In this document: positions 12,743 to 63,082 of the stretch, piece by piece | Position numbering within the stretch: the first letter of the stretch is position 1 | Layout: each line of letters begins with the position of its first letter | Made by a program: the position numbers and the translations under genes | Assembly (NCBI RefSeq): GCF_019649055.1 | Contig: NW_026570242.1 | Span: forward strand, 1-64,000 | DNA length: 64,000 nucleotides | DNA from: Paramacrobiotus metropolitanus | Lineage: Eukaryota > Tardigrada > Eutardigrada > Parachela > Macrobiotidae | Direction: 5' to 3' | Notes under the pieces: generated by a model | What the model was told of the DNA's origin: nothing | What the model saw: the letters and a program-made list of their open reading frames with translations, nothing else | Database searches by the model: none

Positions 12743-15536
12743 GCTGCGGGTGTTTGCGCGTTATGGCCTCGCTGCACCGTCTTTTATACATAATTCATTG
12801 TTTTATTCTAATTTTATTTTGCACGTGTTTTGTTACCAGACTATTGTCTGGCTTCTTCCAGTGAAAAATCCACCAGTTTCGATGTTCTGATTTTCGATCC
12901 CTGTGATTCCCACGGGGACATTGTTTAAACTTCCTGCAGTGACTTGATGAATCACGTTCCAACCGCGCTGGCAGTGTTAATTTTAATGGGGATTTCGGCG
13001 TCTCATGCGTAGGTTTCAATTGGATTCTTTGTTAATAATGGCTTACTTCCATCCCACACTATGACCTTGCATGAGATTGAGAGGTCACGCATTACTGGAC
13101 CAGTATTATACCGCACGTCTAGCGTGAGAGCGGTGCGTTTCGGGGCGCCCCTTTCCAGCAGCTGTGATTAAATAGAAAGAATGGGAACAGCCAACTTAAA
13201 AATGCCCTAATGCCTAATTGAAAGGATCTGCTAGTTGAAGCCCATCTTACGTTCAGATTATTGGACTAATTTGTGATTGAGTACTGCAGATTAATTTACT
13301 TTAGGGCATTCCCAACTGGGCAAAACTGTCCCGAATGCGTGCTTGAGTAACTTTCGGTGCGGTCTGTGTACTCGATAGAAAGGCTATAATTAATTAAATC
13401 TGTGTAATCTGAGCGAGGCAGAAATTTCAGTTACTTACTGTCTCACAAAGGGAGAATTATGGTCCAGATACTTTTTGCTGCATCACATTTGTACAGATAT
13501 GAACAACAATCACCATCTCATGGAATGAAATAAAAAAACACGGTGGAAAAAAACGTTTTGGGTGCAACACAATCAAAGAAACACGGTATAACAGGGTGTG
13601 TGTCAATAATTTCCGCCTACAATTGTGGAAATATTTTTGTCAAGTCGCCATGGACCTGGAAGTTAGTCGGCAAGAAACAGTACCGCTAAGGCGTAAACTT
13701 ACAGTATTTAAATAGTATTTCCACCTACTTGCATCAGTTACATGTACTGATTTCATTGTTTTGAAACGTTGAAATGCTATTTCACACTGATATCTCTACG
13801 CCTTACAGATTGTGTGGTACCCTGCATCGAACCGGGACGCTTCAAATCGTAAAATTCTGCTCGCTTGATGTCACTCGTATCAGTTCAGTTCCGATTGGAA
13901 TGCGAAAATACTATGTATTATGTTAAGATTGAAAGAATCATGTACAAGTACTTTGGGTCCTATCATAAAGGATTAGTATAAAGTAGCATTAACTATAGAT
14001 ATGTGGTACTTAATCAAATTTTGTACTGCATATGCGGTACAATTTAAAATTATCGGTATATTAACCTTAACAACAAGTGCCCCGCTCCAATCCACTGTAA
14101 CTGGCAGAGTAATTATATAAGTACCTAAAGTATCTAGTTGATCGGTACGTAGCGCTTGATTGAGAACGTTCACTTGATTTGGGAGAGGTTAGCAACGCAG
14201 ATAACCTGCTATCTTCAAATTAAAAAATGTCACCGCTACTTGAGAACGGGTGATATGCGTGGAGCGCTTAATCTTCCATATAATAGGCAGTGTTCGCACC
14301 TAACGGAAGTCAGTTCGGAGGTGTCAGATAAACATGCCAGGCTCACTTAATGACAACCATTGAACGCTCCTCTTTAATCTGACGGCAGTGGGCAACATCC
14401 CTGATGGAGATTAGGTGAATCGCACATGTCAAGTAGGAGCGACGACAAAAGCGGATCCTCATGCAAGCGGGGTGCGCAGCCCCGATTTCCAGCCGGAAGT
14501 GCGTCATTGTGCAGCTTTGAGGAAAACAACACACATTCCAGAATACTTAAAAGCACGGTTTTGGAAAATTCTGCGCTATTCATAAGTGTGACTGCACGAA
14601 CAGGATATTGAACTCGAATTGACATAAATTTTGTAAAACTGACATACAAAACCCACGCGAATTCTCCGAGATTCGACCGGATGAACGACGGGAAGTCTGT
14701 GGGCAACGATACATTATCAAGTATTATTATTGATATTTATTTAACATTTAATCCAAATGTAGTCTTCGAGAGCAGTTTATGTTCAGCTGCTGTAGCAGCT
14801 GCTAATTGTGTTTTGTTCGCGTGAGCAAATCCATCTTGCGTCGCATTACGTGGATTAGCCACGCATGTCTGATTACTAATCTGGTTAAACTACAACAATC
14901 ATAATGATTTGAGTAAGTGCAATAAACTAGTGACATTTTAAAATAATAATAAGAAAATTAGAATTGCCTATTTATTTTAATAATAGGAAGGCCCGGCTAG
15001 ACACGTACGGCATACACCGAAATCTGTAATTATGCACAAAGGTCCCCAGTCATTACTATAAATTTGCCGTGGTTTACGTCACGGTTACGCGGCGGACGAC
15101 AGGCGCGCCCTGATCGATGTGTTTGGCCAATGGGAATCGATATGTATGTGCTCACAATGCCGGCTACTTGAGTCAGAACCGCTGCAACCAAAGTGATAGA
15201 CAGCTTGAGCCCGGCATTCTTTCATGCAAAAAGTAAACCTTGTCCCGACGTCTTTTTTTGCCTGCAGTATCCCGGTTCGATGCAGTAGTTAAGCTAACAG
15301 AACGCGGTATTAATCACATGTCCACTGGGCCGTTGCGCGAGTGCCACCAGTGCCGCTCCACCGTCTCATCCATTTGCTCATCTCCATATGAAAATGTTTG
15401 TTTTTTGTATTAGCCGGCCGGGAGCGGCGCGGAGTAAACCCTCCATGAAGAGACCGGCGCCGGTGATCGCAGCAGGCAACACTTGTCCATCTGTTAGTGT
15501 GTGCGGATATTTGTGTATTGTGCGGTAATAACGGTA
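12743..15536. other. Intergenic region upstream of the receptor gene
   Basis: No convincing exon was found. Minus-strand ORFs around 14343-14706 lack domains. The last 500 bp before 15537 are more GC-rich and probably contain the receptor's promoter and 5' UTR. Confidence 0.45.
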
Positions 15537-18500
15537 ATGGATCATGATGGGCTGATAAACTGGCCCAATTATTCGCTGGTAATCAATAAGACAACCAGTG
15601 CTACGGCGGCTACCGTCGTCGCCGCTGCAAACAATAATGCCACCGCTATCAACTTTACATTGAACGATTTCAAGGAATTGACGCGCTCACAGCCCTCATC
15701 GATTCTCACCATATCCGTCTACTCAGTGCTACTGTTTTTTGGTTTAATCGGCAACTTAGTGGTCTTCTCGACACTGCTGAAAAGTCGCTACCGGAAGTCC
15801 TCTCGCGTGAACAAACTAATTTTGCATCTGGCCATCGCCGATCTGATTGTATGCTGCTTCACCATTCCCATCGAGATTGGCTCGAGGATAACGGTCACAT
15901 GGGAGGCCGGGGATGTGGGATGCCGGATCTTTCAGTTCTTTCGTCCCTTCGGACTGTATCTCTCCTCCAATACCATTATCTGCATCTCTCTCGATCGCTA
16001 CTTTGCCATTGTCCAGCCGCTGAAATTGGCCGATGCCCGCCGGCGCGGACGGATCATGCTCGCTGCGGCGTGGATATTCGCCGTGATCTGCAGTGCGCCG
16101 CAAGTGAGTGCATGTCCTTTCTGCCGCCGCAGACTAGAAATCGATAATTCAATCAATCGCGCCATGAAAACAATCACAAACGTTAATTACCATTAACTAG
16201 CTGCAACAAACCAGTAAATAATATCACTTCGAAACAGAACTACATAGTTCATATAGATGCGCAGCGCCGTTAATACTTACAGTAATTCAGAAAATTCGAA
16301 ATTTTTTAGAAAAAGTAAATAAAACTTGAGTATTGCGCAGTATTAATCTGTACATATTTTTGTGCGCCGGCGACTTGTATATAATGTATTTATGGAAGCA
16401 TACATTCATTTACAAGTTTTTGTGTGTGCGGAAAATCTATAGATCCGAGAATTCAAATGAACACTTCCGGTAGATCGAATATATACAAAGTATTGTGTAT
16501 TCGCCGGGAGAGTTGTAACACTGCATATCCGTATGGATAAGCTTTCCAGTGATCGCAAAAGTTCATGACTTCCTGATATCGCTTGTGTTTATCGTTCTCA
16601 GGTGATTTCCTAGCAAAATGGATTTTCGTTGCCGTTAGATGTGCAGTAAAGCATCAGGTGGCGCTGCGTGTAATCTAACTTACGACAGTCTGTTTGCCAA
16701 CATTAAATTTTAAGTGGCTAGATAATTAAATGAAATTGTAGGCAGCGCTCTCCTCTTACTGGTGTTCCAATCGGCTTGACGAGATTCGTTACGCCTGCAG
16801 CCGGTCTTACGAACCCAATTTAGGGAAGTTTCTTCCAAATGTTGCCACATGATGCTTGCAGTGACACACGTTTTCCCGTAATATATGGGTCAAGGAAGTT
16901 AGTCAGGACATGCCGAGAAATTAATTCATATTAACAGAACAGGGATTCTACTGTATCGCATGAGCGAACGTTTGCAATTTCGCAATATTTAGCATTTAGC
17001 GCAATCAAACTAGTAATTTACTCGCTGAAGAATCAATCAGAAAATGAGCCGGCATGCGCTCAGTAAAGGGCTCGATAACCTACGTCATGCAACCAAAATC
17101 CATAATATCACCCAGTAATGCTTACAATTAGCATGTATAACACTATTGTGTAATAAATATCATGATCTCCCGGCCTTGTTTATAATCATTCGTATTATTT
17201 GATGGCGTCACTATCAAGTTGTACAAAGTGATCCGCCAAACGGTTCTGTAAACTGCATCGATATCACGAACAACTTGTAAATAATAATTGGCTTAATTGT
17301 TACTGAAAATTCTATAATCTTTACATGGACGTACTTTGCATCTATGTAATGCCATGGCCAGGCCATACAGGGCTTTGTTGTTCTCAGTTAGTCCATGATA
17401 ACTGATTTCCAGTTTTCATAATAGCAGCGGCATTTATTCTTGGATATTTCCAGGGCGAAGCAGTGGACCATTTGCACACTTTGTATGATAATAATGACAC
17501 AAGCTTATTGCTAAATGATCCCGAGTAAGGGTTAAATTTGGTTATGTAAACATCTGCGTTCCGCTAAATCAGTACCATCCATGCATGTATGCTGTTAGGA
17601 TTTACGAGGATGACTTCCGCTCTTCACATTTACTGGTTGTCTTATATGAAGGGAAGCCGGGATAGCAATCTAGATACCAAAATTTGTAATCCGCTTTTGA
17701 ATGTTTGAACACCTAGTATTTTGCGACTGGTTTATAATTATGCTTTACTTTGTTTTTGAGTTTATAATTTTTACGCTTTTTCCCGTGATATTAGCTACAT
17801 TAAATACAGATTCTTATGTGTACAATACTCCATTTTCTATCGTTACAATACACACTGGCTGATCAAATGCCGGTATGTATTGTACACCGCTGGTTTTTTG
17901 CAAATGTTTTTTGTTTCACGATTGTTCGCTTTTTCCAACAAATTTAAAAAGATTACAGTACATAGGGATACAATACTAATACGGTACGGTACGTACTAAC
18001 ATACGGTAGTAACATACGTAATACGGTACGGTACGTAGTAACACTGCACATGTGTGACCGGCGATAAACAGGCTACAACTAATGCTTGCAACTCCTAACT
18101 TGCAAGAAATCTCGTGCATATTCTTCGCTGAGTTTCGTCGGGGGAACGCCAAACGTGGATAATATACCATTCGCTGTAAAAATTAAACATGGTGCAGTAG
18201 ACTTTAATTATGCAGTCCGAACCGACAATTACTTACCTCTGTAAATTTGGTTTTTCTCGTGACAGTCCTGATTCACTGTTCTGACAAGTAATTAAAAGCG
18301 AGTATACACGTGTTTAGGTGAGGGTACCGGATCTGTACCTTTAATATTTTTTTATGTAAAAAACTGCCCTGAAATCGTTTATACCGCAAGCGAAGCGTAG
18401 CGCGATGGTCCAGCCAAGCCGGTTGCGCCAGAGGCGCTTATTTATAATGCTAATTGGGTCCAAGTGGATAGAGATGGCATGAGCCGGCACAGCGCCCAAC

Positions 18501-21500: not shown

Positions 21501-24500
21501 CACTGTTTCCGCTGGGCGATCAAAAAGGTTAATTTTTCGGGTCGGCTCTTATTGCGGCTGTTGTTGTTTGTTAACCAGAATTAAATTATTTCCCATGAAT
21601 TCCAAAGACATATACGAGTACGGTATACGAAATTAAATAGAAAAATTACTAAATTAATATAATAGGAATCTGAGCGCGTATATATGGAGTTACACTAGAA
21701 AATCGTTTGGTTTAACTGCACCCTGGACTTGGAATCGGAACGAGATACGCGTACAGTGCTATGCTCTGCAGCAATACGTGCGAACCAATTTTCCAAGGTT
21801 TTATATCGTGTAGTTTTTAAACACGGAGAACTGAAATACTGAAATAAGCAGCCAGCGTCAGGAAAAGCAGGAAATACATAAAAGTAAAAGACTCTTATAT
21901 TCACTAATTGTGAGTAAGAAACTGTTGGTAACTGGTATATATAGTACGTAGTAGACACGACTGCAGTAATCTGCGCTTGCTGATCTGTTTCTGTCACGGT
22001 AATTAAGCATTATACATATTATTCTTTACAATTAATCAAATCTGACATGTGACGTAGCTGCTATTTTTAACAATCGTGGTGTTTTTTAGCGCTATTATAC
22101 ATGGGGCAACACAGCAGTCTGCAAGGTATGCTTGTACATAGTCATCTCTGGTTCCCACTGCACCCCACAAAACGCCCCACGTGTAATATTCGCACCAGCA
22201 CATGTTTCACAAATTATTCACCATCAGTTGCACCCTTTTAATGAAAACTACTTGACCGGCGTTTTCATCATAAATATATGTAGAGTCGTAGACCTTGATT
22301 GTACAGCATCATGCATTTTTATGCATAACAGACGCACACTCGTTTAGTAAACGTATTCGCAAGGATTGTTGGGTACAGCCGTTGTTTAAGTTTAACTAAA
22401 TGTTTTGATGTGCTCGTACGCTTGTGAGCACAGGAATCTGATTACAAAAATCTGCTGTTATAGAAGAGTAGTATTGCAAAGGTTATTTCAAAGCATTTCG
22501 TGGATCAATAATTGCGCTATCGTCGCTTGTATATTTTATTATTGTCAATCATAACAAATGAAATCTCAAGTGGTCGGCGCGTGGTTTATTGTTCGGCTTG
22601 TTGAAAGGCGAGATTTATAAGCGCCTTTGTACGGTTTATAAACAGAAGACCCATTCTAGTGTGGAGAAGGAGCCCAGTGATTCGCAGTTCGCCTATTCTC
22701 ATGAATCAGAAGGTTTCCGGTCCGCTGATAGAATGCAGCAATAAATTGCTCATTAAAGTCGTACGCGCCCACCGCACAACCGGCTACGCAGTCTTTCATG
22801 CAAATGCCCACTTTGGAGAAGTGTCAAAATAAATCTGCTCACTGCTCATTTAATCCCCTTGACAAAGTGTAAACTGATCCCAAGTAGTCAGCGGAAAACA
22901 CATTTCACTTGCCGCATGCACTGTGCAACTGCAGCCGCATCGTTGACGCGCGGAGATGCCGCCGCACTCGCGGTCCGTAAATCGGGCTGAGCTACCGTAA
23001 TCTGCCCATTAAACGCAACTTCTCAGCTTTCCTCTATGGACAATATTATTATTGATTACGGCCCGAATAATGAGAACAGCGTTTAGCACAATTTTTCAAT
23101 TACGGGTAATATAATACACCTTCCTGATGCTGACTGACGTTGCCGGCTGATCGACTTATGAAAACTGTAAACAGCACGCGCTGCTACCGCATTTGCCTAA
23201 GTAACCGTTACTTATGTTACCGTTGGATCGATAATCGCATGTACTTACAGGGTGAAATACCATACGGGATATTGTTCAGGCATACATTTTCCTAGTTAAA
23301 CAGCTGTGAAGCAATTTTGTAGGATTCCAGGAAAATATTAAGTAGATAAGTATTTCCTCTGATTAACGACGCTATCCACAGGCTACCAAAATATTCGGAA
23401 TAATGGAAACAGCTTAAATAAGATAAGGCAGCACCTAAATATTTTACTCGCATGCAAGGAATTTTTAGCTGATTATTAATTCACCATAGGCTAGGCGAAT
23501 TTCTTCGAAACGTTTAGTTATGCTTTGATTGGTATAAAAATGCACAGTGCGAAGTTTCTTGCGCTAGTGACAGTACAGTGACCTTTGTTCCGGCTGCACG
23601 CCTCACCGCTTCGATAGACTCAAATTGAATAGTGCTTAATTTATTTTTGGTTAATTCGGTTGGGATTGCGACGTAATGCCTAGCTAATGCGCTGTCATGT
23701 CCCAAATTCCCATTTTTGGCACTGTCAACTTGATCCGCACCCAATTCGCACGGCTGGTCTTGTGACGGATGCTCTGTGGGTCCCTCAATGAAAGATGTTG
23801 TTTGTCTTTGAAGGTTCCGGCGTGGGCGAATCATCATTCCTAACGCAGGCCCTACAAACGCCGCAACAGCAGCCCGGAATGACATGTACGGCCGATGAGA
23901 ATTCCGGCTTAACCAGCAATTGCAACGGGCTCAACAACGCGGCCACCCCCGCCGCCCGCCACGTGCAACTGCACACCAGCGTTAACCGCAGTGCCAGCGC
24001 TAATGTAATCCGCAATTACAGCCAACGGCTGCCCGGCACGGGATCAACAACAACGGCCAACGCGGCAAATCGCATGGCCGATTTATCCAAAATTGAACGC
24101 GCTCGCAGCCGCACACTCAAACTCACCATCCTCATCGTACTGTGCTTCGTAACATTCAATACTCCCTACACCGTCATGTTCTTCTGGTACCAGATCGATA
24201 AGGCATCCGCCGAATTGGTGGCGGTGATCATTCAGGAGATTCTCTTCTTGTTCGCTGTCAGCAACTCCATCATCAACCCCTATCTTTATGGCATCTACTC
24301 CAAGAGTCTCCGTAACGAGATCAGCAACAGTCTTCTGTGTCGGGCAGTGCGTAATTGTTTCATGCAAAAAAACGATTATGGCGGCAGTTCCTCGGACATG
24401 TACAGGGACGTCAAGGAGCAGCCACAGCCGGAACCTATGTACGTTCCCTTGGTCAAGTCACCCGTCCACAATATCCACAATATGCCCTATCACCCTTACC

Positions 24501-24928
24501 AGCAGCAGCAGCACGCGTTCTCCAATGCGACGACCAATCAGCAGCACGCTCTTCCGAATGGCCACAAAGCCCACCCCCTCTACTGCAGTATTGGCCAGTG
24601 CACCAGCAACACCAGCAACAGTCGCGCGGACAAGTCACGCGCCTTCGCATGCGGCTATCCTGGTCTGTCTAGATCCGTTGACCACATTGATGCGAAGCAG
24701 CGGAAGCTGTCCAAACGCCGCAACAAGTCCGAAAAGGCCCACAGTCATGTGCAGCAGTATTCGTTTTCGGCCAATTCCACGTCGTCGGAGAAGTCTCTGG
24801 TGTCGGAGAAAGCCCGCAGCTGTCACGGTGTAGGACGCAACACTGCTTACCAGCGAGTAACTGCCGCCTATAAAATTAGCCTCTGTCCGAAAAGCAACAG
24901 CGATCTCCACTCATCGTCATTTGATTAG
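15537..24928 (+). CDS. GnRH/AKH/corazonin-type G protein-coupled receptor
   Basis: Exons 15537-16103, 20893-20968, 21220-21372, 23814-24928; 636 aa. It is a class A receptor for a small amidated neuropeptide (inferred). The N-terminus has four N-glycosylation sequons (N11, N17, N34, N39). TM1 carries N73, TM2 D102, and C129 sits before TM3, which ends in DRY (153-155). TM5 is followed by YTRILWEIS, a signature seen in AKH, ACP and corazonin receptors. TM7 ends with NPYLY. Two features differ from the usual form: intracellular loop 3 is enlarged by about 90 Ala/Asn/Gln-rich residues, and TM6 reads FNTP where class A receptors normally have CWxP. The C-tail of about 200 residues is His/Gln/Ser-rich. 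Introns of 4.8, 0.25 and 2.4 kb make this the largest locus in the window. The donor after exon 2 (gttatt) is weak. Which ligand subgroup it belongs to cannot be told by eye. Confidence 0.88.
16104..20892 (+). other. Receptor intron 1, 4.8 kb
   Basis: It contains a direct repeat built on aatacggtacggtacgta (17977-18043). Two longer ORFs near 19370-20290, on opposite strands, have no recognisable domain or splice support. Confidence 0.6.
17976..18043. repeat. Short GTAC-rich direct repeat
   Basis: The segment aatacggtacggtacgta occurs at about 17978 and again at about 18020, with related cggta units between. Confidence 0.8.
21373..23813 (+). other. Receptor intron 3, 2.4 kb
   Basis: No exon, RNA gene or repeat was identified. 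Confidence 0.5.
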
Positions 24929-31722: not shown

Positions 31723-34149
31723 ATGAGCAGCTCAGAAGAAGTGTCATGGATATCGTGGTTTTGTGGTCTCCGAGGCAATGAGTTCTTTTGCGAGGTATGG
31801 TCCCTCGCAGAAGTGATTGTTCTGCCTTGAAGCAGCTAAATTAACTGCTTTGATTCTTCAGGTTGATGAAGATTACATTCAGGATAAGTTTAATCTAACG
31901 GGACTGAACGAACAGATCCCGCATTATCGACAGGCGTTGGATATGATTCTGGACTTGGAACCAGGTTAGTTTGAATATCTTTCTGGATTTCTGACCATGC
32001 ATGGATGTTGTTGTCGATAGCCGTTTCATGCGTTGTATGCTTGCATCCACTGCTGCATATTTGGCACGGTCTGTTTGTTCGTTCATAGAAGAAGAACTGG
32101 AAGATAATCCCAATCAAAGCGATTTGATAGAACAAGCTGCTGAAATGGTAAGTGTTTTGCCTAATGTTTCGATCGAATATTCTGATGTATTCATCTGTCG
32201 TCGATAGCTTTATGGACTGATTCACTCTCGATACATCCTCACTAACCGCGGCATCGCACAAATGGTATGCATCTCTCATCGCGCGCTGCTCGAGTGGGAA
32301 AAGTCATGGGTTGTTTTTTTCCGCTGCTGTTTGTAGGTTGACAAGTATCAAAACGGAGATTTCGGGTATTGTCCGCGTGTTTATTGCGAGAACCAACCAG
32401 TTCTCCCGATCGGACTGTCAGATGTTCCAGGTGCGAATGCAGGGATGATCGGTTTTGCGAATGCTTCTGCATGGAAATTCAGATGCAATAAATTGTCGTT
32501 TTTTGCGCATCAGGCGAAAGCATGGTGAAGCTGTACTGTCCGCGCTGTATGGATGTTTACACACCAAAGTCTTCGCGTCATCACCATACGGACGGAGCGT
32601 ATTTCGGCACGGGGTTTCCGCATATGGTGTATATGGTGCATCCGGAGCTGCGACCGAAGCGTCCGCAAAATCAATTTGTTGCTCGGTAAGCAGTGAAAGT
32701 ATTTGTTCTTGATTGCGTTATGAATCTTTCTTGCATACTTTCGATCGTTGGGCTGGTTCTGTCGATGCACAATATTTTGCCTCGTGCAAATCTGGTTTTA
32801 TAGAGGGTTGTGATTCTTTCGAAAACTCACAAGTGTTACATAAGTTTGAGCGATGCTTTCGTGATCATTTTGCTTCGTTTTGCGATTCATCCGTCAATCA
32901 TATCGGGATTCAAGAATCCGAGAATTTGGAAACTACTTGGAATGTTTTGCTTTGGAAGTTTTTTGAATTGACTTTAGTCTTTAGTTGCTAACTCCACTTT
33001 CGTCAGTGACTTGTTTAACTTGTTCGATTCAAAGACAAATACGCTTCTTCGTCAAGTTTTGATAAATGTTTTCGGCACTTTCCAGCTGTTTGTATGGGAC
33101 ATTGTTGTGGATCTTGTAGCCTTGAACTGACGTGAAGCAGACTGTACTCGTAGGGATTGCACAGTACAGTATTGTAGTACAGTTATGGTAATCTGTACAG
33201 CGCTTTCAGTGGCTAACGGTTTCTGGTTGTTTTGCTTTGTTCATTGAAACAATAACCGAGCATGCCCTACTGTTTCCGGCTTTTGTTTTATTTTGCATAG
33301 GCTGTACGGCTTCAAGATCCACGAAAAGGCATACGAACAGCAATGGAGAGCGGCTTCATCCGCTCCCCGCTCAAATAATGGCCAACCTGTGACATTGCAT
33401 GGCCGTAATGACGCCTGGTAGTCGCGTCCCTGACCGTCCTTTGTGATTATTTTCATTCCCTCTTTTAAGGCATGCTTTCTCCTTTTTTGGTTGCTGGTTG
33501 TGGTTGATTATTTGATTACGGTGCATTGACGTAACATGCCATGTTCCTTAAACCGTGTATGATTTGTTCTTTCCAGTTTATTTGGGTTCAAGATTCATCC
33601 CTTGGCTTATCAGCTGCAGTACCAGGTACGAATCCTCAGATAATCTGAAATTGTTGGTACAAGCCATAAAATCAAAGTAAAACCGCTGCTTAAATGCATT
33701 TAGCTTCGGGAAAATTAGCAAATAATGCATTATTCGGCTTGAGTCGAGACTTATTAGGTAATGTTTGTGTGTTTTTGTTACCATGAATATCTATCTGCGT
33801 ACAATGAGTAGCAGTGTAAAGTCAGACAATCCTTTCGTGGCGCGGGCGCGAAACAAGTATCGATGCTTTATAAAATAAATTTCCGCTTCTCTTCGCGGCG
33901 TATGCTTCGATTGCATCGTTATTCTATATCTGGCGATTGTATCTATAGCGAAAACAACTTGACAACATTAACCTGTGAATCTTTCAGGCAGCAACGCAAA
34001 ATCAAGCGCCTCAACCGGCCCACAAGCCGCAAATGCCCCGTCAAGAACCTTCTCGTACACGTGCTCGTAGCCTTTCGAAATCGCCCAATAACAGCGACAC
34101 GGGGTTTCCTGTTTCGCAAGGTCGTCTTCCGTGGAACCACGATAAATAA
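31723..34149 (+). CDS. CSNK2B: Casein kinase 2 regulatory (beta) subunit, two alternative 3' ends
   Basis: Common exons 31723-31794, 31862-31964, 32089-32147, 32208-32264, 32337-32430, 32514-32685. Form A ends with exon 33301-33421 (225 aa); form B with 33577-33625 plus 33988-34149 (255 aa). It is the dimeric regulatory subunit of the CK2 holoenzyme. The near-invariant N-terminus ([18 protein letters not shown]), the acidic loop ([13 protein letters not shown]) and the zinc-binding pairs CPRVYC and CPRC are all visible. After VAR the two ends read [15 protein letters not shown] (A) or [16 protein letters not shown] (B); B matches the vertebrate C-terminal segment better and continues into a Pro/Arg/Ser-rich tail. 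Both acceptors accept the same phase-2 donor at 32685, so the ends are mutually exclusive. Confidence 0.95.
33301..33421 (+). other. CSNK2B: CK2 beta alternative last exon A
   Basis: Acceptor gcatag|gctg, phase 2, stop TAG. It encodes a divergent copy of the C-terminal alpha-subunit-contact segment, then a short polar tail ending NDAW. Confidence 0.8.
33577..34149 (+). other. CSNK2B: CK2 beta alternative last exons B
   Basis: Acceptor ttccag|ttta, phase 2. A 49-bp exon encodes [16 protein letters not shown], then exon 33988-34149 adds about 53 residues with Arg-Ser-Pro phosphosite-like motifs (RARSLSKSP). Confidence 0.8.
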
Positions 34150-35652
34150 CAAATAACTTTTGATGGTTACTTAATTAATTTGCCAGTCGTGTTAAGTTTA
34201 CCATTCTTCTTGTATGTCGGTTTGTGCACTTTACATTGCTGACTCGGTATTTTGTCGCCGCTTCTTTTTGTGTTTTACATTCTGCCACTGTATCATTGCT
34301 TGTTTCTGTTGTTCACAATTGACAGGGTTGCCCGTGTTTCGAAATACTTATTTAATGGTACCAATCGTTGGTTTTCGTCTGGTCGTTTGTGCAAAAATAT
34401 AACTGTATAAGTTATGCAGTTTCATATTCTCATGCCGTATTTTTTATAAAACCGCTTGCAACATAATGCAGATAAGAATGCAAAGGATTTTTAATCGCAA
34501 GCCTGTATTCATCACTTTTGGCGCGTTTTCTTTACTGGCCGGAACCATGTCCCTTGTTGTAATTATTATGGCAAACCCCTTGCATTACTAATAATTATTA
34601 TTTGTAAGAAATATTAGATGCTTTGTGACCACATGTCACTCTATATTGCAGGATTAACCTTTGTGCACTCGCCACACCACCTCTTTAATTTAATCAATCT
34701 ACTGTTCAGCTGCCGCACAAAATTTGTACTTGCAATGCTGGTAAGTTTGCTTTATATAATACAATTGACAAATTCCAATAATACGAATTAAATAAAGATC
34801 CTATTAACTTTCAGATTTTGTTTTGACACTATAATGGTACAACATCTGGTAATTCATTTCATTATTATCATTTTAGACATATTGCGAAAGCGACATTTTG
34901 GACGCACTGCACATTGCAAAAGCGTTGCACTTGAGTAATGAGTGCAGCATATTCTTTAGGCGAAGATGGCACTAGCAAAGCTTGTCGATTATGGCCGACG
35001 TTCCACGAAATTACGAATGAGGTCTCCTTTGGAGAAGAATGATACAAAGTTCTTATCACACCTCTCAAGTGCTTTTTGGTAACATGATGGCGCTGGTCAC
35101 AACCGAGTGTCGGCGAAATCTGATCGACCATACTGGCCAGACTGGCCTACTACATGTATTTACTTACGAAGAAGGGATGGACACCGGGAGATAAGGGTAG
35201 CAAGGGGGCATGGTTTTGTTAACGTGCAAAGTTACAACAGCAGTCGTAATACCACTGGTCAAACAGCCGCTACATATAGACCTTGGACAGTGGCACCACT
35301 ACAAAACATTGTGCTCGATTTTACCTCGTTGAAAGTGGTTTTATCAATGGTTTGTTATCAGTAGTGCAACGCTCAAGTACGCAATTGCATTTGTAATTTT
35401 ACACTATCTTTCGTAATTTCATATCTCTTATTAGTTTTAAGTACGGAAGTACCACCGTAACGGCGACGTAACATGAGGCCGATATTTGGACTGCTTCTCT
35501 GGTTTCCTCTTTTGGGTGTTAGCTACTTGCTGCTGATGTTATTTAATGTATTAGCGCAATTCTTTCTGACGTTGCTGGAATTTTGACAGTTTTATCCGGG
35601 ATATATAAACGGCTAAAACTTTGAGTCTACCAGACTTCGAGCAGTTGCAAAT
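34150..35652. other. Intergenic, nothing recognised
   Basis: Contains the CK2 beta 3' region and the promoter of the next gene. ORFs near 34870-35360 on both strands have no support. Confidence 0.45.
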
Positions 35653-52724: not shown

Positions 52725-54889
52725 TTTCCAGTTGATTGGTCAGACGAAACAACTAAAAATGAACTGAATTTCCCGCAGCTATGCAAAGTTTACGATAAGA
52801 GAATGTTGAACATGTTGACGGAAAGACTACCTGTGTTTGTACATAACTTTTGCACCTTCAACAAAATGATTAATCAGTTATAAGCTTACTTGCTTACCCA
52901 AACTCGCCAATAACATCTGCAATTTTAAGCACTGTACTACTGTATTTCTATTCCTTAAGGAATGGAAAGTATCAGTAATGAGCGATGCTTTGGTTTGCAC
53001 TTTGCAGACAATGCTGCAGCTCATGACTTGGAGTTTTGTAAGTGCTTACAGTAACCACCAACATGCAATCGGTTGCACTATAATTCCAGTACACAGCTGC
53101 TGCCCAGGCATGAGAGCCACCTTAACCTTTGCTTATCAGATTTCTTATCACACGTTATACGTGTTTATGTACGTATTAACACGTATGATCAGCTGATAGA
53201 TGCCTCCGCACGTTTTACAGGGTAATAAAAAATTTAATCGTTTCGAAACAGATGCTTGCACCTTTGCTTGTAATTATGGCTGGTTTATGCTGCTGCAGAT
53301 AAAGGTACGAGCGAAAACAGCTACGTAGAAGCTTTACTGTGCAGTTCATTACAACAGTCGTCGAGTGTACCGACGCAACGAGAGATTTACGTATACTTCT
53401 ACCTCTAAAATCATCAGAAAAGTACTGGTAACAAATGGGGAGTCAGAATTGCATTAACTAATTATAATGAGAATACTACATTCGCTGATTCACCTGTACA
53501 AAGAAATAACGCGCAAATCACAAAAAACTAAAAGTTATCTTCGCAAGATATATAGATATATGCTGCCAGCAGCGCCAACATAAACAAGCTTAAGCCGGCA
53601 TTGTCCATAAGATAATTTTACCTACGCTTATGAACCACTGGGAAAATTCAATATTGTAGCATTCATTTGCTCGCATTGTGTCACTGAGCGGGCAGATACA
53701 GTTGTACCCGGTAAAGTTATCTATAGATAAAGTACGCACATACCATCTATATACAACTTTACAGTATTTATTGTACAACAGAAAAGTGCCAAATCACAGA
53801 ATACTCAATTATTTTAACATTGCCGCTTCTGTGCAAAGTTGAAATTGCATTTTCTAAACAACAGCAATGGTTTAATTAATTAGCTAACCAGTAAGCAAAT
53901 TTGACTAATTAAAACAAATGTTCCAAACGCCGCAAGAATAATTGCGCAAATGGTGAAGCATGGGAAGCTGAGATTAATTCTCCATCCTTGACCATTCCCT
54001 TCGTATTGAGCTATGTGGTATCTGGTAGAATTTTTGTTAATGTACAGGGATCTGTTTTGCGCTCGCATGTCATAATTACAAAGCTTTGGTGCATTAAACT
54101 GAACATTTTTATTCATTTATGTTAATTTCTATTTAACATATAACCAACAGACAGTTGTAGAGTTTGAACGTTCCTGGGTTGATGTTGCCGAGGTTGTGAC
54201 GAAAATGGAAACCGTCAAACCGGCAACTGTTGCTCAGCTTGTCGCTGACTAACCACTGACGTTTAGAAGGTCACTGCCAGGCAAACAGCGCAGCAGTAGT
54301 TCTTACACTTCTAACCATTTTTTTAAGGTAACACAAATACTGTCACACACTTAATAATATCTGACTTTACCTAGACTGTAACGTACAATACGTGCTAAGC
54401 GCACAACAGATCGTTTACAAGATTTCTTTGGGCAACACACTTGTATACTTATCGTTAGTTAGCGATTCAAGACGGTTGACATACCACCGGCAAGTGCAGC
54501 TGGCGCTTACTGTCAGGTACAGTACATTGGAACTTACAGTTAGAAGCTTTAAGTATAGGACAATAGTCTTTCACGTTTAAGGAAAAGTGCGCAAAAGTTA
54601 CGAAATTACAAGTGGATCTCGCATGCAGCCATTCACTGCTCCGAGTCATGAACTTGAACAACATAGTCGAGGGTTTTTGAGAAAAAACTTTCGAGGTGTG
54701 CTGGCATTCCGTGTTAATAGAGATATGCGTTGTGATAATCGGAAGTTGCTCATCTGTACATTATAGATTTCTTCATTGAAAGCAAATGTTCTGATAATTC
54801 TTAGAATATTTATAATATGCTGGCTGGCTTTCCTTTATGTAATTATAAATTACGATATTTCTGATATAAAGTGTGAAGCATTCGCTTTT
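52725..54889. other. Intergenic between lyase and first G alpha gene
   Basis: No supported gene. A minus-strand ORF at 53880-54116 (78 aa) ends in a hydrophobic stretch but has nothing else to support it. Promoters of two divergent genes are expected here. Confidence 0.45.
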
Positions 54890-56125
54890 ATGGATCCAGT
54901 AGCCAAATGCTGTCCGTGTCTGCTGAGCGAAGAGTCGCGTATGCGCAATGCAGTTAGCCGTGGAATCGACCGTGAAATGGATGTCCATAAAAAGTTTTCC
55001 CGCAAAGAACTGAAAATGCTTCTACTGGGAACTGGTGAAGCGGGTAAATCCACCGTACTAAAGCAGATGCAGATCATCCACGGTCAAGAATTCGCGGACG
55101 AGAGAAAACGCATTGAATTCGTCCAATCCATTCGGGAGAATATCTTTGAGGCCATGATTATCATGCTCAACGCCATGGACCAGTTTGATATTCCCTTGGA
55201 GCACGAGGGCAACCAGAAACATGCCCAACTGGTTAGAAAGCAAGGCAAAACATACTGCCGAACAGATAAGGGCGTGGAAGATCAAGAAGCGCTGAATTCC
55301 CTCATGCAAGCCACCAAGAAATTATGGGAAGATTCCGGTGTTCAAGAAGCCTACCACAGACGCAACGAATACACTTTCGTGTACCTGAGCGATTCAACCA
55401 AGTACTTTTTGCAACGGTTGGATGCGATCGCTAAGCCGAACTACGTTCCCACACAAGACGATATTCTCCGGGTGAGAAAGAGTTCAACGGGCGTCAAAGA
55501 GTACAGCTTCAAAGTGCGACAGGTGTACTTCCGTGTGGTGGACGTGGGTGGACAGCGGACGGAACGGCGCAAATGGATCCACTGCTTTGAGAAAGTGACC
55601 TCCATCATCTTCGTCTCCGCACTGTCGGATTACGATCAAATGGTACTGGAAGTGGATGCCCAGGGACAGGAGGGCGTCAATCGGTTGCAAGAGAGTTTAG
55701 CTCTGTTCAATGTGATCATCCATGAGCGGTTCCTACAAGAAGCGGCCATAATATTATTCTTGAATAAAACCGATATTTTTGATGACAAGATCAAAGTCCG
55801 CGATATGGGCAAATACATACCGGAGTATAACGAATACAAATCCAAGCATAGATCGGCCAAATCGAAGAGCGAGGGGGATATGGCAAAGGAGTTTGTGTTG
55901 CAGATGTTCTTGGCCTATGTCAAATCATACCTGTTGCATAACGCGGAAATTGCCGAAAAAGAGGCGGGCGAAAGAAAGAAGCGGGATTATGAGGCGGACG
56001 ATCCGGATAAGTTGTTGTACTCGCATTTGACGTGTGCGACAGATACCGAAGGGATGCGATTTGTTACTACCGCCGTGGAGGATTATAACTTACGGATATC
56101 CCTGATGGATTTCCATCTGCAGTGA
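54890..56125 (+). CDS. Divergent heterotrimeric G protein alpha subunit 1, intronless
   Basis: A single exon of 411 aa, ATG at 54890. The frame is open upstream but has no other ATG. N-terminal Cys7, Cys8 and Cys10 are probable palmitoylation sites. The P-loop at 47-55 reads GTGEAGKST, with Ala where canonical subunits have Ser. The Arg-finger region is DILRVRKSSTG, switch II is VDVGGQRTERRKWIHCF, the guanine motif is LNKTDIF, and TCATD is present. It is longer than the usual 350-360 residues because of a charged, Lys/Ser/Glu-rich insertion before TCATD. The C-terminus (MDFHLQ) matches no standard class, so receptor coupling cannot be predicted. Switch II resembles Gq/G12, but class is not assigned. 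Confidence 0.92.
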   Translation: MDPVAKCCPCLLSEESRMRNAVSRGIDREMDVHKKFSRKELKMLLLGTGEAGKSTVLKQMQIIHGQEFADERKRIEFVQSIRENIFEAMIIMLNAMDQFDIPLEHEGNQKHAQLVRKQGKTYCRTDKGVEDQEALNSLMQATKKLWEDSGVQEAYHRRNEYTFVYLSDSTKYFLQRLDAIAKPNYVPTQDDILRVRKSSTGVKEYSFKVRQVYFRVVDVGGQRTERRKWIHCFEKVTSIIFVSALSDYDQMVLEVDAQGQEGVNRLQESLALFNVIIHERFLQEAAIILFLNKTDIFDDKIKVRDMGKYIPEYNEYKSKHRSAKSKSEGDMAKEFVLQMFLAYVKSYLLHNAEIAEKEAGERKKRDYEADDPDKLLYSHLTCATDTEGMRFVTTAVEDYNLRISLMDFHLQ

Positions 56126-56744
56126 TCCATATATTATATAGTCAGTTAATAATGCTCGGACAAGTAACTTTGTTTTGTGTCATATGAAACACAGTTCATC
56201 CTTGTAATATTAACTAGTGTTCTGCGCTGTCACCGGTGTGTGGCCGAGTCAGGCTGTTGCATAAATTCTACTCTTACTGCATTCGGTATGAAACTGTATG
56301 GCATTGTTGGTTAGCGGCATTAACAAAACCAAATAAAATTTCACATCGAAAAAATATTATGACACCCCTAAGCGAAAAAAATGGCACCAGCAAAATCGCA
56401 ATATTTAAGGAAAATATGGCTATTCAAAATTTTGAAAGATGTAAGATCAGTTTTTTAACTACATATGGATAGCGGGTTTAAGGTTGCTGATTACTGTGTG
56501 TAATTTCGTATTTAATTTGGTCAAATTGTACAGCTTTATCTCGTGAGCGCGTGGTTGTACTGTATCTGTTTTGGATGAAGCCCTTACAAATGCCACTTTT
56601 AGGCATAGATAAGACGATGTAGATTTTGGAGCCAACGAAAATATAAATGTCAGTACACTAAAGAAATCAGACACTATTAATGATATTGCAGTGTTCGATT
56701 TCGACTCTTCTTGCACGGTTTACCAGTCTAACACCGGCTCCACA
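56126..56744. other. Intergenic between G alpha 1 and the cathepsin-like gene
   Basis: An AATAAA near 56332 may end the G alpha transcript. Nothing else is seen. Confidence 0.5.
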
Positions 56745-58824
56745 ATGACAACATCCTGGACCATTTTTACAGCGTTGTGCGTAGGAATTGTGGTGATTAT
56801 GACCGCTTCAGGAAGTGCGGATGCTCTACGTCGCCTCAAGCATCGGAAGCATAAAGGTATGACAATGGCAAAAACATGCATGTTGTTGGGTTACCATTAG
56901 TATCACGGGTGTGATAATAAAATTTAATGTTTTCATCCTACCAAATAATTAGTATAAATAAAACGGAGTACGTACAAATGGTGTATAAATAAAACGAAGT
57001 TTGTACAAACGGTGACACTAATTGTAAGTTTTGTACCTTCACTAATTGTAAGTCTTGTGCGCGTATAAATCGGGCTGATCGCATTCATCTTAGAAATCAC
57101 ACTCTCGGTAAAAAATTTTGATAAATAAGGCGCATGCAATGCTAAAGCAAAAAAATAAAGTACTTGTACTACTACATATGTCTGTAACAGCTGTAAACGC
57201 AACAAAATAATTATTGTGTTCTCAAAAAGAAAAGAACATCCGTGCTGAATACTAACTTGCGACTTGTTTATTACGAAATGACATGGACTCATAACACAAC
57301 ACGGAGTTTTATTTTTAATTTACAGTTGGAACGGTATCCGATCCCATACCCGATGCGTGGGACTGGCGCGACAAGGGAGCAGTACTTCCGGTCATTGACC
57401 AAGGAGAGTCCGGGAACAGCTTGGCTATCGTTGTCGCCGAGGCGGTTTCTGCATACGGATTTATCAAAAGCGGCAAGCTGGTTAAGGCCAGTACGCAGGA
57501 ATTGTTGGACTGCTGTTTTAATGGCACAACTCCCCAGCTGACTCACAAATCGGCGCAGGCGGACGACGTTTACGACTGCATTGTGGGACTGCATGGTCTC
57601 TGTTGGGGCGCTGATTATCCACCGGTCATCAACCCAGAAGCCTGCATGGCCGATAAGTGTGCGCCGGAAATTGTGGTGCGTAATTTGCTTCCCACAGTTG
57701 TTAATTATAATTTTATAAATATAATATTATTCAGATGTAATGAGAAGAAAATACCGAAGCATGAGCAGAACATACCATAGTTTGACTATTTCTTACTTCT
57801 TTTCTGTGCGCATGTTCGAACAATCGACAGAACAGGATATAAGTGCCTACAATAATGCTTGTCCGCACTGTGGAAGGGAAACGGTGACGTCCGGATGACT
57901 TACACAGCAATGCAAATACATAAGGTTTTTAAGCCTGGATTTTTTTTCAATTCATTTCAACCATTACTAATAAGTTTTAATTATCGATCACCGATTAAAG
58001 TCGTTTGATGACGAATACTGCAATTTATTTTACCAATCAATTGTCACTATATAATGCGAAAATTAGTGCGCAATGCTCGTGTTATAAGCCGAACGGGATG
58101 GACGTACTAATTGTGAACATAAAATACAATAATTATATTAATTTGGGAGTGCTACGTACCGTACTGATCACACGAGCAGTTATCACATCACGCCGGAACA
58201 TCACAAGATGCGTGTGGGAGAATCTGACGGGATCAACCATTTATCGTAATGTATTGTGATAAGGCTTTTCATTAGATATCGCTTGTTTTTGTGCAGATCA
58301 AAGGTGGATACTCCGTGAAACCAATGAACGAAACTGATCTGAAAGCAGCGGTGTATGCCAATCCGGCTGCCGTGATTCTCAACGCGGCCTCCATATCGTT
58401 CCAGACGTATCAGTCTGGCGTATATGACGATACCAGCTGTGACCCCACCATGCTGGATCATGCGCTCTTGGTCGTGGGATATGGCCAGCTGGAAGGACAG
58501 GATGTCTGGATCTGCAAAAACAGCTGGGGTGAGATGGCTGAATCATGTTGAAATGCGTTAATGGCAACTACACATTAATGGCAACTACCCAGCGTATGTA
58601 CAGTTGCACAGCGGCAAGAACAGAACTACCGTACCTACAGCGCATCTCTTTTCAAAAGCAGCGCACTCTTTTCAAAATGCCTTTTCCTCGCAGTCTTTTC
58701 AAATGCCTTATGGTTAATACTTTTCAACTTTTCAGGAGCCGACTGGGGGGAGAAAGGATACATCTACATAGCCCGTGGTAAAAATATTTGCGGCATTGCC
58801 AGTGATGCATCCATCCCTATTTAA
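56745..58824 (+). CDS. Papain-family (cathepsin L-like) homologue with Ser in place of the catalytic Cys
   Basis: Exons 56745-56856, 57326-57675, 58297-58528, 58736-58824; phases agree; 260 aa. An N-terminal signal peptide of about 27 residues is followed by a short basic stretch (RRLKHRKHK) and then directly by the mature-like domain (PDAWDWRDKGAV). The usual I29 inhibitor propeptide is missing. The active-site segment reads DQGESGNSLA where the family has QGxCGSCWA: Ser69 replaces the nucleophile, Ser66 replaces the disulfide Cys, and Leu70 the Trp. The oxyanion Gln63, His209 (LDHALLVVGYG) and Asn229 (KNSWG) are kept. It is probably secreted and not a normal cysteine protease. A Cys-to-Ser change is also known in silicateins and TINAG-like proteins (family knowledge). 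Confidence 0.88.
56952..57060. repeat. Two short tandem duplications
   Basis: A 31-bp unit beginning gtataaataaaacg is present twice with a few substitutions, followed by two copies of cactaattgtaagt. Both lie in intron 1 of the cathepsin-like gene. Confidence 0.85.
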
Positions 58825-59470
58825 AAGCATTGTGTGACTCAATGTATGTAGTCAATACTCGACGAACGCGACAGCGTTTTTGATGCTTACGTTGTTACGT
58901 AATATTGCCGATTGCGGGATTTCCAGTGACCGTTGAGTTGATCCTCACGGGAAAAATTCGCACTCTACATATTTTATTAATACATTTGGCTGTTTCTGCA
59001 GTTCAGCTTTTCTTTCACTGACGCAGTACAATGCGCTTGAACTTTTTTTATGAAATGCAAAACATGCCACAACCAGCGAATCACGAAATAAAATTCAACA
59101 ATTTAAAATCGAATTCAGGGTCATCATTGTCACGTAGATTACACTGCTGCAATATTTACCGCATTTTGGGAATACACACCAAATTAGGAATGGGGTATAT
59201 CGCAGTCCATAAAAGTAAAAATTTATTATCGATAATATCTGGTATATTGTACAGCAGCAGCCCAAATAACTAACACTCATTTCCACACTTTCGCCAAAAG
59301 CATAAATAGTGTCCAGGAAAATGCTACTCAACCTTAATTTGCGAAATATTAGTTAATGACAAATGAACGGACGCGTATCAGTAATTAAGCATATCAGCTA
59401 TCGTCAGCTGTGATCTTTCCCCAGTACAGTACCGTTACGGCGTTACCTTTGTGCTTGTAATAAACATTAA
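58825..59470. other. Intergenic between convergent genes
   Basis: Nothing recognised beyond expected 3' UTRs. Confidence 0.5.
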
Positions 59471-61169
59471 TCAAAAGGGGTTGAAATCTGTGAGCGCTCT
59501 CTGCAAGATACTGTGGCGCCCGACATTGAAAAGAAACTCCATTTGTCTTGTATCGGTTGCCGTTGTAAAATGTGTAAAAATGTCTCTCCTTGGATCAGTT
59601 CTAGTGTCGATGTATTGTGTTAGAATGTATTCCCTTCCTTCTTCCACATTCCCAGATGGCCCGGTGTACTCGGGAAAATGAGCAGATAAATCGCTATTTG
59701 CAATTTTTCGGTCGAAAATGTCAGCTTTATTGAGAAACAACACAACCGGCACATCCAGGAACCAGATGCCATAAGAATCCTTTCCCAAGTATTCTCGATA
59801 ATTCAGTATGACGTCAAACAGGGCCAAACTTTCCCGCATGCGGTTGACACCCGGTCTTTCGAACATGGTCTGGTCATACTCCGACAAACTGGCAATGAAC
59901 ATAATTAGGGTCACATTTTCGAAACAGTGGATCCACTTCCGGCGCTCTGTGCTCTGACCGCCAACGTCCACCAAGAGAAACTCGGCTCTACCAATCCTAA
60001 AGGAGTACTCCTCGATTTTGCGTGTGCGTACACGAACGCGAACAATGTCGCTGTTTCGTGGAATATAGTTAGGGTCGACAATTGGAAGCCTTTCTCGTGT
60101 GTCTTGACGCGGTGTAGCAGTACCTGGTATTTGGTCATCTACAGATAGGTACAAGACTACAAGCCAGTTAGATTCGAGCAATCATACTCGTACTCTAAAG
60201 CCTTTACGTACACCAGTATGTAGAGAAGTACGAGTACTTCAGCTACGAGTGTTTTTCCATATTATTATGTAAATACAACTATGACATTTTATGAGTAGTG
60301 TGTAAACTGTATTATACACCGAAGTCTTTAGAGTACGAAATTGACTCGTCGTAACTGTTGCAGTTTTCTGGAACTTTGGTACGTGTAGTAAGTACAATAA
60401 TTACAGCGATGGCATAAAAGCGAAGCAATGTGACCAATGACCACTGGCGGTAAATACTTAAGTAGTGTTACCGGCACAAGTCTGTGATACATCAATACAT
60501 TGTAAGATTAGTAAATTAAGCATACGAGTACATAATATTATGATTGAAAGATTTTTAACAGGCCGTGTTATGGAGTTTTAAGGGTACACTATTACTGTTG
60601 TTTTGTAGTTTTACATAGTGAGAATTATTAGAAGGGTCAATAATTTTACCGAGGTCAAGAGGCGGCGGTGTTGGTGGCCGGTTTGTAATTCGCTCCATAA
60701 AATATTCCGTGGAATCGCTTAGGTGAAACTCTCTGCGGAGTTGGAAGGCTTGTTGCACGCCGTCATCTAGCCAGAGTGTGCGTATTGCCAGGAGTATTTC
60801 GGCACGGAGATCTTGTTGCAGATGGTTGAAGTCGAGATCTCGCAAGAACGTGTTGTACAGGTGTTCGTTACTCGGATCTTGGAAAGCGATTTCCTTGACG
60901 CGCATCGCTCCAACCAGAAGCTGGATGGATTCCAGTAGATTGGAATGAATGTGCCGCACGTAACTCATCCGCTCCTGATTGGCATAGCCGTCGCCATGAA
61001 TGATTTTCATCTGCTTGACAATGGTCGACTTTCCGGCTTCTCCGGTCCCCAGAAACAGTACTTTGATCTGACGGCGCATCTTTTTGCGTTCCCGCTCGAT
61101 GGCTCTATTGATTTCCCGCTCCAACCTGTCGATTTCATTGTCGCACGAATGGCAACATAAATTACTCAT
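59471..61169 (-). CDS. Divergent heterotrimeric G protein alpha subunit 2
   Basis: Exons 61169-60650 and 60138-59471 (phase 1 junction); 395 aa. Cys5, Cys6 and Cys9 are likely acylation sites. The P-loop at 41-49 is GTGEAGKST. The helical domain is complete and ends in a Pro-rich insert (RPPTPPPLDL) that leads over the intron into DDQIPG. Several normally fixed positions differ: switch II reads VDVGGQSTERRKW with Ser for Arg after the catalytic Gln; the Arg-finger region is RVRVRTRKIEEY, lacking the TTG; and TCAT is TTAT. LNKADIF is intact. The C-terminus TDFNPF is non-canonical. It probably binds guanine nucleotide with altered kinetics (inference). An alternative read-through past 60650 would truncate the protein without the GTPase core. 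Confidence 0.87.
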
Positions 61170-61963
61170 TTTGACTGTTTATGGAGATCGTAACGTTTTC
61201 AAGTTACAACACGAAAAGCTGCAATCCATAGCACAATACCGAATATTCCAATATTGTCTCAGCCATAAGCTCACGCTGTTTCGGTAAAGAACGATACAGA
61301 CGCTTCGTGATGAGCTCTCGCACTGCATTAGCCATTGCTACTGTGTTATCAGTGTTATCATCACGTTATCGATAGAAAAGTGCAATGTGCATATTTGCTT
61401 CAAATTTGAAAACAATTAGTACGTTCAAACCGTTGTTTATTCTTGCAAAGAATTTGCTTTCGCGGTTCATTAAAAACTGCAGAGCACTGAGAACAGGAAA
61501 ACGTTTTTTCACAACACCTTCTGAAGCTGCACCGGGTCGTATTATAGTAAACAGCACCAACATTTGCTGTTTTCCCTGGTTCTATTGATGCACGAAAGTT
61601 CCCAGGTAAAAAAGCTAACTGTGCTTATGTACCAGCGGAGATCCCTGAATTTTTGACCAACCTAATTCAGTGAAAATATCTACGAGTATTTTTGTACGGG
61701 TATAATACACAAACATATAATATGCAAGTACTGGAAGTGTGTTGTGAAACCGTTATTTACCGCTTACAAAGATTTAGCCTGCACAAATTTCCTTATTCTC
61801 TTTATGTACCAATCAGGTCCGTAATTGCTGTTAATCAAAAGCATCACATAATCACTGTTGGTTGTTATACAGATAAGCAAGGATATGCGATACATATACA
61901 AACATCAAGAAACTAAAGAAAGGAAGGAAATTTTACAGAAAAACTGCGAAAGGCACGTTGTTA
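61170..61963. other. Intergenic between G alpha 2 and G alpha 3
   Basis: No supported gene. It should contain the promoter of G alpha 2 and the 3' end of G alpha 3. Confidence 0.5.
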
Positions 61964-63082
61964 CTAGCCTACAGCATAATCGCCTAGCGCCCTGTTTAAA
62001 ATGTCATCACGAATATTGTAATAGACGCGTTCGACACAACTGCGATCCGTAGCACACGTAAAGTGTGAATACAAGCTCGAATCCTCATCCCTTCCCGCTA
62101 ATCGGGCGCCGGCGAAAACGTCGGTATAGAGACTTTTAATAAACTTCCTAGCGCGTTCGTAGTCGCTTTCGCCAGAGCCCGGTAAATTAGGCTTGTACTC
62201 CGGAAAGTGCTCCTCCAAACGACTGTGGGGAATTTTCTCTTCCAAAAGATCCATTTTGTTCAGGAACAGGATGATAGTCGACGAACGAAAGTACGGTGTG
62301 CGAAGCACCGTATCGAATAAATTCACGCTTTCCTCCATACGATTCTTGCCCGCTGCTTCCACCACCATCTGGTCGTAGTCCGATAACGAGGCCACAAAGA
62401 ACAGAGAGCTGACGTTGTCAAACGCATGAATCCATTTGCGTCGCTCCGTCCGTTGTCCGCCCACGTCGACAAAGAGCAAATCCATGCCTCTGTAATGCGC
62501 CGGATATTCCACGATCCCCGTTGTGGCCACGCGCATCCGCATGATGCAGTGATCATCGGGAAGGAAATCATCCGTCCCGATGGCGGCCGCTTGGTCAAGG
62601 AAGAATTTCGCCGAGTCACTCAGAACGAACTCCCGACGGCGGTCGTACGCTTGCTGGATGCCCTCGTCGCGCCACAGTTGTTCTGTTTTGTTGGCTGTGT
62701 CCTGATCGAACACGCTGTCAGTGGGAGACAGCGACCGGATTTTTTGGGCAAGGGAAGCATTGGCGTCGTCTTGATACTGGATGTTCAGCTGGTCCATGGC
62801 ATGTATCAGCGTTTGGATGGCATCCAGCAGGTTGCGACGGATGAGTACGACAAACTGTCTCCGCTCGCCGTCCGAGTACTGTCTGCCGTGAATCATCTGG
62901 ATTTGCTTGAGAATGGTGGATTTCCCTGCTTCGCCGGCGCCCAGCAAAAGAATTTTCATTTTATTGCGGTAGATTTCTCTGTCCCGGGTTAGCTGTTTTT
63001 TAACGGCATCGTGGATCCTTTGTGCTTCCGGGTCGAGCTTTGATCCCCAACATTTGCGACAGGGACAGAATGTAAATCCCAT
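61964..63082 (-). CDS. Divergent heterotrimeric G protein alpha subunit 3, Gq-like, intronless
   Basis: A single exon of 372 aa. The start is the ATG at 63082; the frame is open further but lacks an upstream ATG. The N-terminus MGFTFCPCRKC offers Gly2 and three Cys for lipidation. The P-loop at 48-56 is GAGEAGKST. The Arg-finger region MRVATTGIVEYP and switch II VDVGGQRTERRKWIHAF are intact, as are LFLNKMDLLEEKI (Gq-like) and FTCATD. The C-terminus (RALGDYAVG) does not match the Gq EYNLV end. Of the three paralogues it is closest to a canonical subunit. Confidence 0.92.
   Translation of the reverse strand: MGFTFCPCRKCWGSKLDPEAQRIHDAVKKQLTRDREIYRNKMKILLLGAGEAGKSTILKQIQMIHGRQYSDGERRQFVVLIRRNLLDAIQTLIHAMDQLNIQYQDDANASLAQKIRSLSPTDSVFDQDTANKTEQLWRDEGIQQAYDRRREFVLSDSAKFFLDQAAAIGTDDFLPDDHCIMRMRVATTGIVEYPAHYRGMDLLFVDVGGQRTERRKWIHAFDNVSSLFFVASLSDYDQMVVEAAGKNRMEESVNLFDTVLRTPYFRSSTIILFLNKMDLLEEKIPHSRLEEHFPEYKPNLPGSGESDYERARKFIKSLYTDVFAGARLAGRDEDSSLYSHFTCATDRSCVERVYYNIRDDILNRALGDYAVG

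Follow-up and report, generated by a model that had tools for sequence, protein, structure and literature searches.

A candidate tandem duplication of the CK2 beta last exon in the tardigrade Paramacrobiotus metropolitanus

The regulatory subunit CK2 beta is highly conserved, and a locus of Paramacrobiotus metropolitanus raises the question of whether one gene for this protein carries two alternative ends and, if so, how they arose and what they would change. We analysed a window of 64,000 nucleotides (contig NW_026570242.1, positions 1 to 64,000, assembly GCF_019649055.1) with a G+C content of 42.0%, in which no Rfam family was matched at gathering scores. A first-pass annotation of the same DNA had described a pair of mutually exclusive last exons derived from a duplicated C-terminal exon. 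We consider it likely that the last exon of this CK2 beta gene was duplicated in tandem, and that exon A or exon B is chosen at the donor after codon 185 to give two different protein ends.

The CK2 beta gene and its two candidate ends

The window contains one full CK2 beta gene on the + strand (31723-34149), which is intron-bearing and intact. The common part is made of six exons that together hold 557 nt and is followed either by exon A or by exons B1 and B2. The features of the gene are as follows.

31723..31794, + strand: exon 1, with the start codon, aligned to human CK2 beta
31862..31964, + strand: exon 2, ending at c.175 as in human
32089..32147, + strand: exon 3, with the acidic loop
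32208..32264, + strand: exon 4, ending at c.291 (human acceptor at c.292)
32337..32430, + strand: exon 5, with the first two zinc cysteines, ending at c.385, unlike human c.367
32514..32685, + strand: exon 6, reaching c.557 and the donor CG|gtaagc that both forms share
33301..33421, + strand: alternative last exon A, 121 nt, with its stop TAG at 33419-33421 and a tail that ends NDAW
33415..33423, + strand: candidate donor CTG|GTAGTC overlapping the exon A stop (exon end 33417), proposed from sequence, with an average score and a poor intron side
33577..33625, + strand: alternative exon B1, 49 nt, followed by the strong donor CAG|gtacga
33874..33879, + strand: AATAAA motif in the intron between B1 and B2, and the first canonical poly(A) hexamer past the exon A stop
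33949..33987, + strand: candidate 5' extension of B2, in frame, starting at an acceptor (33949) that outscores the one at 33988; proposed from sequence
33988..34149, + strand: exon B2, encoding a 53-residue tail (AATQNQ...WNHDK) with its stop TAA at 34147-34149
34791..34796, + strand: AATAAA motif after B2, the next canonical poly(A) hexamer (scanned up to 35000)

The donor at 32685 (c.557) is compatible with the acceptor at 33301, which gives form A of 225 aa, or with the acceptor at 33577, which gives form B of 255 aa. Both exon A and exon B1 are entered in phase 2 and both spliced frames are open, so the earlier description of two exons with phase-2 acceptors, a common donor and separate stops is borne out by the coordinates, phases and open frames. 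Form B has one more intron than form A, between B1 and B2. Residues 8-191 of both forms cover positions 1-182 of the 182 in the PF01214 CK_II_beta profile, scoring 257.5 and 258.1 bits against a cut-off of 27, and residues 1-210 of form B align to human CK2 beta at 457.9 bits. The zinc-binding cysteines of CK2 beta lie at positions 109, 114, 137 and 140 (PMC9608649), and all four are present here in CPRVYC and CPRC segments aligned to human.

The resemblance of exon A to the CK2 beta tail was evaluated with a 19-residue human tail probe, run ungapped against the window in all six frames. B1 scored 71 and exon A 65; the third-best score was 32, and 60 windows simulated with a Markov-1 model yielded nothing above 39. 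These scores, together with the codon pattern described below, uphold the homology of the two exons that had been proposed. Chance resemblance arising in intron DNA was rejected for exon A, as its score far exceeds those of the simulated windows and it sits at a strong acceptor in the correct phase; we give this explanation practically no credence. The openness of the 24-codon tail of exon A is weak evidence, with about one third of random stretches expected to be open by arithmetic.

Splice sites were scored with a matrix trained on 10 acceptors, five from this gene and five from a paralogue whose model was drawn by eye, making the ranks rough; scores of left-out training sites span -6.3 to 13.9 for acceptors and 0.0 to 9.7 for donors. 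Among the 63 AGs in approximately 32690-34150 the exon A acceptor ranked first, with a score reached by 0.2% of all 3372 + strand AGs in the window, and the B1 acceptor ranked third, with a score reached by 1.5% of them. The AG ranked second (score 9.7) would let an exon begin at 33949, which is 39 nt 5' of B2. An exon starting there is in frame with B1 and stops after RKQLDNINL, resulting in a 211-aa form. The B2 acceptor at 33988 scored 1.6 and ranked eleventh, a score reached by 8.9% of the 3372 AGs. We kept the B2 start at 33988 because the human alignment continues there, with AAT for human AAS at residues 203-205. The end of form B is thus predicted with less certainty than its start, and form B may have two ends.

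A genome-wide search for the CK2 beta family, in which single exons may escape, returned five matches to exons. Three of them belong to this gene and the other two to another intron-bearing CK2 beta gene at L006:2687-3873 (G000:C71:511186-512372), modelled by eye with an uncertain start. This paralogue keeps the four zinc cysteines, and its exons 4 and 5, at 57 and 94 nt, are as long as their counterparts in the main gene. Beyond the c.557 boundary the last exon of the paralogue continues with unrelated sequence, and the Pfam match ends at position 168 of 182. Using a 15-residue probe across the 7 kb locus we found no CK2 alpha docking hairpin (best score 19, as compared to 69 for B1 and 52 for exon A). 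The paralogue seems to be a natural tail-less CK2 beta that is without the docking hairpin.

Other genes were also observed in the window. Three G-protein alpha genes lie within about 8.3 kb (54776-63124), two of them as single long frames.

54776-56125, + strand: G-protein alpha gene
59471-61169, - strand: G-protein alpha gene, in two reading frames
61964-63124, - strand: G-protein alpha gene

A fragment of a papain-family cysteine protease, with a weak Pfam match (E 1.1e-4), is located between the G-alpha genes at 57421-57780. A rhodopsin-like receptor matches its profile at positions 1-121 (15501-16196) and 192-260 (23795-24928), implying a very long intron if this is one gene, and an exon with a laminin G domain is found at 1773-2357. 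Across the assembly, no COX1 family member was detected; a lipocalin search aimed at tardigrade heat-soluble proteins returned 3 matches, the best of which proved to be a fatty-acid-binding protein judging by PDB matches.

Age, selection and origin of the duplicated exon

A comparison of 20 codons gave 28 nucleotide differences between exons A and B, of which 16 are at third positions. Codons 186-193, which encode the docking hairpin, hold 8 of these differences and 7 of the 8 are silent, leaving one replacement. We compared this pattern to a neutral simulation that placed the same number of random changes on B as the starting sequence and ignored repeated hits, a design that indicates direction and not an exact probability. 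Equally few amino-acid changes were seen in 1 of 20,000 simulations for codons 186-193 and in 0 of 20,000 for the first 17 or 20 codons. The helix codons 194-202 were much freer than the hairpin codons, with 10 replacement and 6 silent differences. Silent sites between A and B are saturated.

At the DNA level none of 300 shuffles reached the similarity of the first 49 nt of A and B, while no similarity was left in the flanking intron DNA, where the score was reached by 40 of 300 shuffles upstream and 144 of 300 downstream. The saturated silent sites and the lack of residual similarity in the flanking introns indicate that the duplication is old; the same lack of an intron trace makes exon homology the sole support for a tandem event. 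Similarity between the A and B tails was weak and does not clearly indicate homology, with the protein local score reached in 65 of 2000 shuffles and the DNA score in 230 of 300. To judge from the codons, the exon was duplicated long ago and the copies have been maintained by selection at the protein level.

The much changed helix would also fit an exon A that has dropped out of splicing and survives as a decaying remnant of the duplication. However, the acceptor of exon A is the best in the interval and its hairpin protein is intact, matching human at 8 of 8 residues despite the saturated silent sites, and we consider decay very unlikely.

Tandem duplication of the last exon, as put forward in the first-pass annotation, is the simplest reading of how the pair would have originated. 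The human CSNK2B gene has a splice boundary at c.557/558, listed as c.557+1 and c.558-2 (PMC9608649), and human splice variants place further boundaries at c.175, c.292 and c.367/368 (PMC9237577). Three of the four boundaries compared (c.175, c.292 and c.557/558) are common to both genes and the human c.367/368 boundary lies at c.385/386 here. Both exons therefore start at the ancient last-exon boundary. The human and tardigrade proteins are closely alike over residues 1-210. The available portions of these sources list no human splice variant beyond c.558, in keeping with a single last exon, whereas here there are two and one of them is split by an intron.

The position of that intron bears on the order of events. 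Form A reads AAS at residues 203-205 as in human, without an intron, and form B reads AAT beyond the intron that follows codon 202. The homology between A and B thus extends past the position of the form B intron. We infer either that the last exon was still uninterrupted when it was duplicated, with B gaining its intron later, or that A lost the intron. Genome searches for more copies using the A and B ends gave the window only, plus one match with an E value of 2.78 on contig C61.

Exon choice, transcript ends and other uses of exon A

The intron before exon A measures 615 nt as compared to 60-124 nt for the five preceding introns, and regulated exons are commonly preceded by longer introns. 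The exon A acceptor is both nearer and stronger than the B1 acceptor, and form B requires that exon A be skipped. Joining of the near acceptor at 33301 would produce form A, in which a canonical hairpin is followed by an altered helix and a short tail, and whose transcript probably has a poly(A) site of its own. If exon A is skipped and the far acceptor at 33577 is joined, form B would result, with a Phe188 hairpin, a canonical helix and a 53-residue tail from the extra exon. We infer the use of both junctions and the positions of the transcript ends.

Exons A and B have their own stops, and separate poly(A) sites are hinted at only by the AATAAA motifs at 33874 and 34791. The stretch between exon A and B1 is free of canonical poly(A) hexamers, and about 450 nt separate the exon A stop from the first AATAAA. 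With the two motifs placed in this way, form A probably ends inside the B1-B2 intron, with B1 carried in its 3' UTR.

The term mutually exclusive, used in the first-pass annotation, is imprecise. The two exons are homologous and share a donor and a phase, but they have no common downstream frame and an in-frame product that joins both is possible. The best-scoring donor of exon A leaves phase 2, whereas B2 is entered in phase 0, and a classical mutually exclusive pair with a common downstream exon was ruled out by frame. Known tandem duplicated mutually exclusive exons (PMC3228551) resemble this pair in being homologous neighbours with the same acceptor phase and a common upstream donor, with one exon presumably used per transcript here. 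In contrast to that system, A and B1 are terminal exons of unequal length (121 and 49 nt) with no common downstream exon in frame. Steric hindrance between the exons is unlikely, as 155 nt separate A from B1. RNA pairing around exon A was also assessed and did not exceed chance: of nine inverted repeats in 32686-34000, even the strongest was equalled in 8 of 40 simulated sequences. On this layout, alternative last exons fits better as a term than mutually exclusive exons.

The possible joint product would arise if exon A were a 117-nt in-frame cassette inserted into form B, using a GTAG donor after 33417 that overlaps the stop TAG. Such a cassette would run from phase 2 to phase 2, the stop would be removed and translation of the joined exons could run through to the normal stop of B. 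The donor at 33417 scores 5.2, as compared to 5.0 for the shared donor at 32685, and is second only to the B1 donor (10.2) among 43 GTs in 33301-33990. However, GTAGTC resembles the usual donor consensus GTAAGT poorly, and a fitting frame is expected by chance in about one third of cases. We regard the cassette as very unlikely. If true, it would result in a CK2 beta with two tandem docking hairpins that could hold extra catalytic subunits or chain holoenzymes together.

Exon A could also act as a poison exon, in which a donor past its stop joins B1 and nonsense-mediated decay tunes CK2 beta dosage. Candidate donors do lie past the stop (33520, score 4.5) and such a junction would fall more than 50 nt after it, but this score is only average against the left-out training donors and the arrangement does not require the protein-level selection on the hairpin codons. 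This reading appears unlikely.

CK2 alpha docking and comparison with other CK2 beta genes

CK2 beta contacts CK2 alpha through a beta-hairpin, R186-H193, in which Tyr188 and Phe190 dominate affinity (PMC5374420, PMC9608649). It had been proposed that form A diverged in exactly the CK2 alpha contact stretch. This was not supported. The form A hairpin, RLYGFKIH, is identical to human at 8 of 8 residues over 186-193, and its changes (P194E, M195K, Q198E, L199Q, L201W and Q202R) all fall within the helix at 194-202, which reads EKAYEQQWR. The form B hairpin is identical to human at 7 of 8 residues with the change Y188F, and its helix, PLAYQLQYQ, is canonical. If anything it is form B that would bear a hot-spot change, and Phe188 is a conservative one.

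A difference in stability between the holoenzymes of the two forms had also been suggested. The sources differ on the part played by the helix. The interface table in PMC9608649 takes in residues 186-198, in which case three of the form A changes (P194E, M195K and Q198E) may touch the CK2 alpha contact. In PMC5374408 the terminal helix projects away and adds nothing to the CK2 alpha interface, and the C-terminus is discussed as acting on ring or filament assembly. The hot spots Tyr188 and Phe190 are both kept in form A. A change in holoenzyme stability is thus possible given the disagreement between these papers, but it is not suggested by the conserved residues.

The partner protein was evaluated with an exact search for an 8-residue motif, from which changed or intron-split copies would escape, and one CK2 alpha gene was found in this genome. 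It keeps QLVRKLGRGKYSEVFEA, with a hot-spot stretch like that of human. We take QLVRKLGRGKYSEVFEA to hold Leu41 and Phe54 by human CK2 alpha numbering. These two residues are the CK2 beta-binding hot spots on CK2 alpha (PMC9608649). Judged by the conserved residues on both sides, both forms should bind CK2 alpha. By analogy with the fly isoforms (PMC5374408), the two forms would differ mainly in functions of the helix and tail, such as holoenzyme self-assembly, localisation and choice of partners.

Among the closest known systems is the fly, in which one CK2 beta gene likewise encodes a conserved core with alternative C-termini (PMC5374408). Three of the five fly isoforms rescue the null, so that the C-termini matter in vivo (PMC5374408). 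The fly isoforms vary over about 15-20 C-terminal residues without an effect on CK2 alpha binding (PMC5374408), whereas here the whole last exon including the hairpin is doubled. A literature search, made on titles and abstract openings with subscription papers largely outside it, did not find a duplicated CK2 beta last exon, and PMC9957394, when searched, contained no last-exon terms.

As of 2016, C-terminal CK2 beta isoforms were termed unreported outside the fly among animals (PMC5374408). If both forms are made in P. metropolitanus, such isoforms would extend to another animal group and would have been reached by a different route. Peptides based on the hairpin have been used to block CK2 assembly (PMC5374420), and a gene that carries the hairpin exon twice, once with Tyr188 and once with Phe188 and each time with a different helix, would offer a natural comparison of the roles of the hairpin and the helix.
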